From positions 258,612 through 322,611 of the forward strand of contig CANIVT010000001.1 of assembly GCA_947471565.1 (NCBI GenBank): a stretch of DNA of 64,000 nucleotides. Direction: 5' to 3'. The translations under genes were made by a program, and so were the position numbers. This stretch comes from Spartobacteria bacterium. GTDB taxonomy: Bacteria; Verrucomicrobiota; Verrucomicrobiia; Chthoniobacterales; UBA6821. Positions 19,347 to 21,385 of this stretch are shown here, one piece after another; the stretch's first letter is position 1, and every line of letters starts with the position of its first letter. The notes under the pieces were generated by a model. It saw only the letters and a program-made list of their open reading frames with translations, searched no databases and was not told the DNA's origin.

Positions 19347-20372
19347 ATGACCGCCCAAGAACTCAACACCATCTGGTTCCTCCTCGTCGGGATCCTCTTC
19401 ACCGGCTACGCGATTCTCGACGGATTCGACTTTGGCGTCGGCATTCTCCACCTCTTTGTCAAAAAGGATGAGGACCGCCGTATCCTGCTGAACTCCATCG
19501 GGCCTGTCTGGGACGGTAACGAGGTCTGGCTCGTCACGGGTGGAGGCGCCCTGTTCGCAGCCTTCCCCGGGGCCTACGCCACCGTTTTTTCCGGATTCTA
19601 CAACGCCTTCATGCTCCTGCTCGCGGCGCTTATCTTCCGGGCGGTCTCCATCGAGTTCCGCAGCAAGCGCCCCTCCCGTGTCTGGCGCCAAGGCTGGGAC
19701 ATCGCCTTTGCGGCCGGTAGCTTCACCGCCGCCCTGCTCATCGGTGTGGCCATGGGGAACATCACGCGCGGCATCCCGCTAGACAAGCAGGGTGACTTTG
19801 TCGGCACCTTCCTCGGACTCCTGAATCCCTACTCTCTCCTGCTCGGTGTGACCGTGGTGGCCCTTTTTGCGATGCACGGGGCCATCTTCCTGGTGATGAA
19901 GACCGAGGGGGAACTCCAGGCCACGATCAAAGGGTGGGTCCCCCGGCTGATCGGACTCTTTTTGATTCTCTTCCTCTCATTCAATGTCGCCACCTTCTTT
20001 GAGTGTCCGAATCTCGTCGCGGTCATGGTGACCCGTCCTTACGGATTTGCTGTCCTGGCACTCGACATCGTGGCCGCACTTTCGATCGGTTACCTCACGG
20101 CTAGGGGAAGAGAGTTCCCCGCATTCCTGATTTCCTCGCTGACCATGGTGCTGCTGATGGCCGTTCTGGGAATCTCCTACTTCCCTCATCTGGTGATGTC
20201 GATGCCCGACCCGGGAAACAGCCTGACCGTCAGCAACTGCTCCTCCACCGCCAAAACCCACGGCATCATGCTCATCATTGCCGCCATAGGCGTCCCGATC
20301 GTGCTTGCCTATACCGCCAGCATCTACTGGATCTTCAGGGGCAAGACCAAGCTCGGTCACGTCGGGTATTGA
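19347..20372 (+). CDS. cydB: Cytochrome bd ubiquinol oxidase subunit II
   Basis: CydB pairs with CydA and forms the second half of the bd-type oxidase in the inner membrane. The 341-residue product has eight or nine membrane helices. The N-terminal FTGYAILDGFDFGVGILHLF and SIGPVWDGNEVWLVTGGGALFAAFP are the family's best-known segments. The gene follows cydA on the same strand with a 15-base gap. The gap after it, to 20513, holds a repeat pair and a tRNA. Confidence 0.96.
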   Translation: MTAQELNTIWFLLVGILFTGYAILDGFDFGVGILHLFVKKDEDRRILLNSIGPVWDGNEVWLVTGGGALFAAFPGAYATVFSGFYNAFMLLLAALIFRAVSIEFRSKRPSRVWRQGWDIAFAAGSFTAALLIGVAMGNITRGIPLDKQGDFVGTFLGLLNPYSLLLGVTVVALFAMHGAIFLVMKTEGELQATIKGWVPRLIGLFLILFLSFNVATFFECPNLVAVMVTRPYGFAVLALDIVAALSIGYLTARGREFPAFLISSLTMVLLMAVLGISYFPHLVMSMPDPGNSLTVSNCSSTAKTHGIMLIIAAIGVPIVLAYTASIYWIFRGKTKLGHVGY

Positions 20373-20513: not shown

Positions 20514-20586
20514 GGCGGTGTAGTCCAATGGCAGAGACAGGCGACTTAAAATCGCTCCAGTGTGGGTTCGAGTCCCACCACCGCTA
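20514..20586 (+). tRNA. tRNA with UAA anticodon but a type I body
   Basis: The cloverleaf has acceptor GGCGGTG/CACCGCT (G1-U72), D stem GTCC/AGAC (one mismatch) with an AATGGCAG loop, anticodon stem GGCGA/TCGCT, loop CTTAAAA (anticodon TAA at 20547-20549), a five-base variable loop CCAGT, T arm GTGGG-TTCGAGT-CCCAC, and discriminator A. No CCA is encoded. The UAA anticodon decodes the Leu codon UUA, but bacterial tRNA-Leu normally has a long variable arm, which this lacks. The identity of the amino acid is therefore open. Confidence 0.75.
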
Positions 20587-20665: not shown

Positions 20666-21385
20666 GTGCGAAACTCCAAAATCAAAAAAACCGTTGCAAC
20701 CAAGTCCGTTGCAAAACCACGGCAGCGAATAGCGATTGTGGACTCTCAACCCACATGCCGTATCGGCCTCTCCCATTACATTAAAAAGCTCGGCCGCTGG
20801 GAGATTGCCTGGGCCAGTTCCACCGCCGAGGAGGCCATGGACAAGATGTCCAAGGAGCAACCCGACCTTCTGATTCTGGAAATCGAGCTGCACGGAAAAG
20901 ATGGCCTTGAGTTCATCAAGCACCTCCGCCCTCTTTATCCCGAGCTGCGCATCCTCGTCCATTCCTCCCACCATGAGGAATTCTACGCCGAGCGATGCAT
21001 TCGGGCAGGAGCCACGGGGTATTTCCACAAGATGGAGCCGATGGGGCGCTTTGAGAAAGCCGTCGAGACGGTTCTGGCCGGTGAACTCTTCCTCAATTCC
21101 CGGATCACGCGACAGGCGATCGAGACGTTGGCAGGACGCAACGCAAAGAACGGTTTCGATTCTTCCCACGTTCACGGTCTCACCGACCGCGAACTCGAGA
21201 TTCTCCAGCTCATCGCCAAGGGGCACTCCTGTCAGGATACAGCCGACAAGCTCCACATCAGCCCGCGTACGGTGCAAGTACACCGCAACAACATCCGTCT
21301 GAAGATCGGGCTCGATTCGGCACTCCAGCTCCACGCTTACGCCATGAGGTTCTGCCAGGATGAGGATTGCGGTCATTGCGGGTAG
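20666..21385 (+). CDS. Receiver-LuxR transcription regulator with Glu at the phosphorylation site
   Basis: This 239-residue NarL/FixJ-type protein has a receiver domain (residues 21-130) and a LuxR/GerE helix-turn-helix (about 171-226, GLTDRELEILQLIAKGHSCQDTADKLHISPRTVQVHRNNI). The usual phosphoacceptor Asp is Glu72 (LLILEIEL), and the acidic pair before it is Asp26-Ser27 instead of Asp-Asp. The switch Ser and Lys122 remain. It may therefore act constitutively or without phosphorylation (inference). The N terminus is basic (KIKKTVATKSVAKPRQR), and the C terminus ends in CQDEDCGHCG. GTG start. A perfect palindrome lies just upstream. It stands at the head of the polysaccharide island and is its likely regulator. 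Confidence 0.85.
   Translation: MRNSKIKKTVATKSVAKPRQRIAIVDSQPTCRIGLSHYIKKLGRWEIAWASSTAEEAMDKMSKEQPDLLILEIELHGKDGLEFIKHLRPLYPELRILVHSSHHEEFYAERCIRAGATGYFHKMEPMGRFEKAVETVLAGELFLNSRITRQAIETLAGRNAKNGFDSSHVHGLTDRELEILQLIAKGHSCQDTADKLHISPRTVQVHRNNIRLKIGLDSALQLHAYAMRFCQDEDCGHCG

Follow-up and report, generated by a model that had tools for sequence, protein, structure and literature searches.

Bacterial leucine tRNAs are, in textbooks and reviews, always long-armed. tRNA-Leu is listed as class II in PMC7609411, and tRNA-sequencing reads have been sorted with bacterial leucine tRNAs as long-armed molecules (PMC6297222). Leucine tRNAs of more compact form are found in metazoan mitochondria, where LeuRS charges tRNA-Leu(UUR) chiefly by way of A73 and A14, and where the human tRNA is charged without a long variable arm (PMC9976931). 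A class I tRNA-Leu(UAA) is carried by phages (Prochlorococcus phage P-SSM7, Streptomyces phage Comrade and the phages of IMG/VR contigs), and a short-loop tRNA-Leu(TAG) is present in a mycobacterial tRNA cluster (PMC6582537). The reverse case, a class II arm on tRNAs with Gly or Ile anticodons that are charged with leucine, is represented by the nematode nev-tRNAs (PMC4033280).

The tRNA gene analysed here, which lies within a window of 64,000 nucleotides (the whole stretch of DNA under study), has points in common with each of these systems. With the class II tRNA-Leu(UAA) of bacteria (E. coli leuZ, Streptomyces bldA) it shares the UAA anticodon, the A36A37A38 loop, A14, A15:U48, the GG+7 D loop, A73 and the meaning of UUA as leucine, but its variable loop has five bases in place of the long arm (13-16 nt in the leucine tRNAs of its own genome). 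It resembles the mitochondrial tRNA-Leu(UUR) in its anticodon and in the missing arm, whereas it folds as a stable bacterial cloverleaf and the mitochondrial molecule has a relaxed structure and a mitochondrial LeuRS. Fold and leucine marks are those of the phage class I tRNAs, with 92% identity over 64 nt to the P-SSM7 copy; the phage genes, however, are virus-borne and exist in CAA and UAG anticodon versions too. The mycobacterial tRNA-Leu(TAG) also joins a bacterial leucine anticodon to a short variable loop, but differs in its anticodon, in being an extra copy beside the normal isoacceptor and in its clustering with an HNH endonuclease gene, while the nev-tRNAs share the mismatch between arm class and anticodon. 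No publication reporting a class I tRNA-Leu(UAA) in bacteria was found in the literature searched (subscription papers and GtRNAdb lay outside the search), and this form appears to be undescribed for bacteria, though database records label such genes tRNA-Leu.

The gene was called as a tRNA at 20514-20586/7 of the plus strand by both ARAGORN and Rfam (RF00005; 58.1 bits against a gathering score of 29, E 5.7e-10), and the cloverleaf is recovered by a thermodynamic fold of 20514-20586 (Table 1). All four stems are complete (acceptor 7 bp, D 3 bp, anticodon 5 bp, T 5 bp), with the arms reading GGCGGTG/CACCGCT (acceptor), GGCGA-CTTAAAA-TCGCT (anticodon) and GTGGG-TTCGAGT-CCCAC (T), and the variable arm, CCAGT, is shorter than the 10 or more bases of a class II tRNA. 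Since CTT stands directly 3' of A73 (20586), CCA is not encoded. An earlier note on this DNA had described the class I body, UAA anticodon, five-base variable loop, G1-U72 pair and missing CCA correctly (ARAGORN, Rfam and the sequence agree), but the last two, which it had taken for oddities, are ordinary in this genome: an encoded CCA is also missing from several other tRNAs (e.g. Leu-CAA, Leu-CAG, Trp and His), and G1-U72 recurs in the class II tRNA-Leu(CAA) as well as in the class II tRNA-Leu(UAA) of a sister species. Taken together with the comparisons below, the gene very probably encodes a functional tRNA-Leu(UAA) of class I, which substitutes for the customary class II form and is the sole reader of UUA.

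Table 1. Coordinates of the class I tRNA-Leu(UAA) gene, its parts and its neighbours in the 64-kb window.
Feature	Position	Strand	Basis
Class I tRNA-Leu(UAA), mature body without CCA	20514..20586	+	ARAGORN; Rfam 58.1 bits; kept across genus
Anticodon TAA (UAA, reads UUA)	20547..20549	+	Sequence; ARAGORN; loop CTTAAAA 20545-20551
Variable loop CCAGT, 5 bases; final base is U48, pairs with A15	20557..20561	+	Sequence; 15-48 covariation
Leucine-type D loop	20527..20537	+	A14 A15 20527-20528; G18G19 20530-20531; then CAGA, shared with the genome's class II Leu tRNAs
U72 and discriminator A73	20585..20586	+	Sequence; U72 partner is G1 at 20514
cydB, upstream neighbour fixing the locus	19347..20372	+	NCBIfam TIGR00203; synteny
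LuxR/FimZ-type response regulator, downstream neighbour	20666..21385	+	NCBIfam matches; synteny

In the 2.28-Mb draft genome, a tRNA scan finds 41 tRNAs, among them class II leucine tRNAs with the anticodons CAA, TAG, CAG and GAG, and the only UAA anticodon found by ARAGORN is that of the class I gene. The search for a type II tRNA-Leu(UAA) elsewhere in the genome, which the earlier note had proposed as a check, returned none by pattern or BLAST in the 46-contig draft assembly; in fact, the class II tRNA-Leu(UAA) of a sister species used as a BLAST query matched only the shared T-arm stretch of the class I gene. A scan of candidate loci in relatives for a group I intron-bearing tRNA-Leu(UAA) was likewise empty, the window's own genome being covered by Rfam, pattern and DNA queries. 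The draft (G000) also lacks tRNAs for Ala-UGC, Ile-GAU and Val-UAC, a gap that probably reflects missing assembly around the rRNA operon. Because these other expected tRNAs are absent as well, a class II gene missing from a single genome does not amount to proof, and a class II tRNA-Leu(UAA) might sit in the unassembled part, leaving the class I gene as an accessory, partly redundant leucine tRNA; a few genomes do carry both types. The distribution of the two forms across related and distant genomes makes this arrangement unlikely. The class I UAA tRNA occurs in 13 of 197 genomes of the order, 12 of them in the window's genus and one (G091) in another family, and most of the remaining genomes carry the class II UAA pattern. 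Both scans took in 13 members of the genus: class I alone is present in nine, both forms in one (G003), class II alone in one (G015) and neither in two, so that nine genus members, and also G091, in which class I is the only UAA tRNA, show the class I gene without its class II counterpart. The class II copies of G003 lie on small contigs, one of them with a phage-like tRNA array, and in G015 the class II tRNA-Leu(UAA) is found ca. 1.1 kb downstream of cydB, the same neighbourhood in which its sisters hold the class I gene. The phage-like array in the G003 MAG (G003:C158, L388) comprises seven tRNAs. A stray 5' half resembling class II tRNA-Leu(UAA) is present in a further genus member (G011:C142:30276-30306, L415), in which no full gene of either type was found.

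The same division is seen well beyond the genus. A scan of bacterial genome contigs yielded at least 118 stretches with a class I UAA tRNA; among the matches listed, most are from Actinobacteria (Mycobacterium, Nocardia, Gordonia, Corynebacterium, Arthrobacter-like genera, Microbacterium and Nocardioides) and a few from Christensenellaceae, Planctomycetota, Rokubacteria, Flavobacteriaceae and Chthonomonadales. The gene in the window has the cloverleaf, CTTAAAA loop, five-base variable loop and leucine marks of the actinobacterial and phage versions of class I tRNA-Leu(UAA), and the form is common in both groups. Of 35 genomes chosen because they carry class I, 32 gave no class II UAA match. 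In a sample of 120 Actinomycetota genomes, typed from match lengths, 25 have class I only, 60 class II only and 35 neither, and none of the 85 typed genomes has both (Fisher p 1.2e-9, ignoring shared ancestry). Genomes hold either the class I or the class II tRNA-Leu(UAA), almost never both.

A short variable loop is typical of tRNAs other than those for Leu, Ser and Tyr, and G1-U72 is unusual in bacteria at large, both of which could point to a tRNA charged with another amino acid and to a recoded or ambiguous UUA. Against this very improbable reading, the identity nucleotides are of the leucine type, G1-U72 being present in Leu-CAA also, and UUA sites align with leucine. A14, A15, the GG+7 D loop, U48 and A73 are identical to those of the four class II leucine tRNAs of the same genome, as is the extra D-loop base after position 20. 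Every cellular class I UAA tRNA but one has the full set of leucine marks (92 of 93; A73 in all 93), compared with 10 of the 194 remaining class I tRNAs at the fetched loci, and positions 15 and 48 covary (A-U 185, G-C 14, G-G 6, others 3; n=208). In codon alignments of filtered ORFs from five genus genomes bearing the class I UAA tRNA, to which one outside genome was added as a further partner, UUA faces a different codon at 184 sites, and at 114 of these the facing codon is one for leucine. When the partner distributions were trained on the remaining codons, leucine came out as the best reading of UUA by 279 log units. (A smaller filtered test, with less of the window's own genome, held 14 sites only.) UUA means leucine in genomes in which the class I gene is the sole UAA-anticodon tRNA.

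Because the gene carries the leucine marks, UUA aligns with leucine and a single LeuRS is encoded, a full-length bacterial enzyme, we strongly infer that the class I UAA tRNA is charged with leucine by LeuRS. The earlier note had taken the long arm to be needed by LeuRS in most cases, which is mistaken for the enzyme of E. coli type, where A73, A15-U48, G18G19 and A20a matter in leucylation and the variable arm does not (review, PMC9976931). The single ordinary LeuRS would recognize A73 together with the corner formed by the D and T loops (A14, A15:U48, G18G19 and the additional D-loop base), and not the variable arm, CCA would be added post-transcriptionally, and the mature tRNA would read UUA, taking the place of the usual class II tRNA-Leu(UAA). 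Of the three identities between which the earlier note had hesitated, that of a divergent tRNA-Leu(UAA) is borne out, and neither a tRNA for another amino acid nor a tRNA-like gene of other function finds support.

The class I gene is found in 12 species of the genus at 97-100% identity, and is therefore not a chance match. In most genus members it occupies a fixed site, between cydAB and the response regulator gene, where the tRNA is 97-99% identical between species, compared with 68-83% for the flanking genes, and the intergenic DNA is mostly unalignable. These comparisons show an intact gene that keeps its locus and, as judged by its conservation, is subject to strong purifying selection. 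Some tRNAs function outside translation, and a tRNA-like RNA in a non-decoding role, e.g. as an aminoacyl donor or regulator, would follow that precedent, but it is scarcely to be expected of a gene that is flanked by cydAB and a response regulator and that provides the only UAA anticodon found, while UUA, though rare (1.2 per thousand codons in the window), is used in the essential genes dnaG and leuS. A decayed tRNA gene, as the earlier note had also allowed, is equally improbable, since all stems are intact and the conservation across the genus contrasts with a 17-32% difference in the neighbouring coding DNA, even though no sigma-70-like promoter was found upstream.

The locus also bears marks of integration. 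In G004, a 7.5-kb element with a tyrosine integrase (G004:C19:23169-30816; L390:9170-16817) lies between a displaced 5' half of the tRNA (1-38) and an intact copy, and the tRNA gene is therefore an integration site, with the crossover near the anticodon loop and the 5' half restored by the element. Two more isolated 5' halves, covering positions 1-39, are present at G001:C133:16512-16550 and G014:C17:25610-25648, the latter contig ending there. Five actinobacterial loci (L102, L109, L120, L138 and L158) contain the 3' half only, in two copies 3 kb apart in L102, and these are probably displaced attachment-site halves.

With regard to its source, the tRNA body (positions 8-65) is identical to a copy in a Mycetocola MAG, and a viral sequence (L290) is identical to the window's tRNA outside the acceptor and anticodon stems. 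The class I UAA tRNA is matched by 48 annotated phage records (labelled tRNA-Leu among the matches listed) and by 115 distinct sequences in IMG/VR, and class I leucine tRNAs that bear these leucine marks but have a CAA or UAG anticodon are common in viral contigs (IMG/VR L463-L580, L581 onward). In a midpoint-rooted tree of 196 class I UAA tRNAs (75 columns), the copies from the genus and from G091 cluster together (local support 0.99), and this group joins four viral sequences (0.81) within a mostly viral clade (0.87-0.94); the cell/virus label changes 18 times on the tree, compared with a mean of 66 in shuffles. This placement suggests a phage origin for the class I tRNA of the window, and the compact form may have been gained horizontally, probably from a phage pool of tRNA-Leu genes of the same type. 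More tentatively, and with the balance tilting slightly against it, phages could keep a family of arm-less leucine tRNAs (UAA, CAA and UAG), with the UAA member captured more than once by bacteria of several phyla at the expense of their class II gene, so that a phage-derived tRNA would now be the only reader of a sense codon.

The long-arm rule is broken at one codon in many genomes, including those of mycobacteria, nocardiae and corynebacteria, which makes natural arm-less leucine tRNAs available for probing recognition by LeuRS. The class I/class II swaps between sister species form a natural replacement series. Whether a tRNA from a phage can assume an essential function of its host also becomes open to test with this form. 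Automated isotype calls would be disturbed by a misassigned class I tRNA-Leu. A second kind of class I UAA tRNA is present at five viral loci (L267, L279, L287, L307 and L332), with a D arm like TGATGGAA..GGTATAC and a variable loop that is mostly GTTTT, and is apparently of separate origin.
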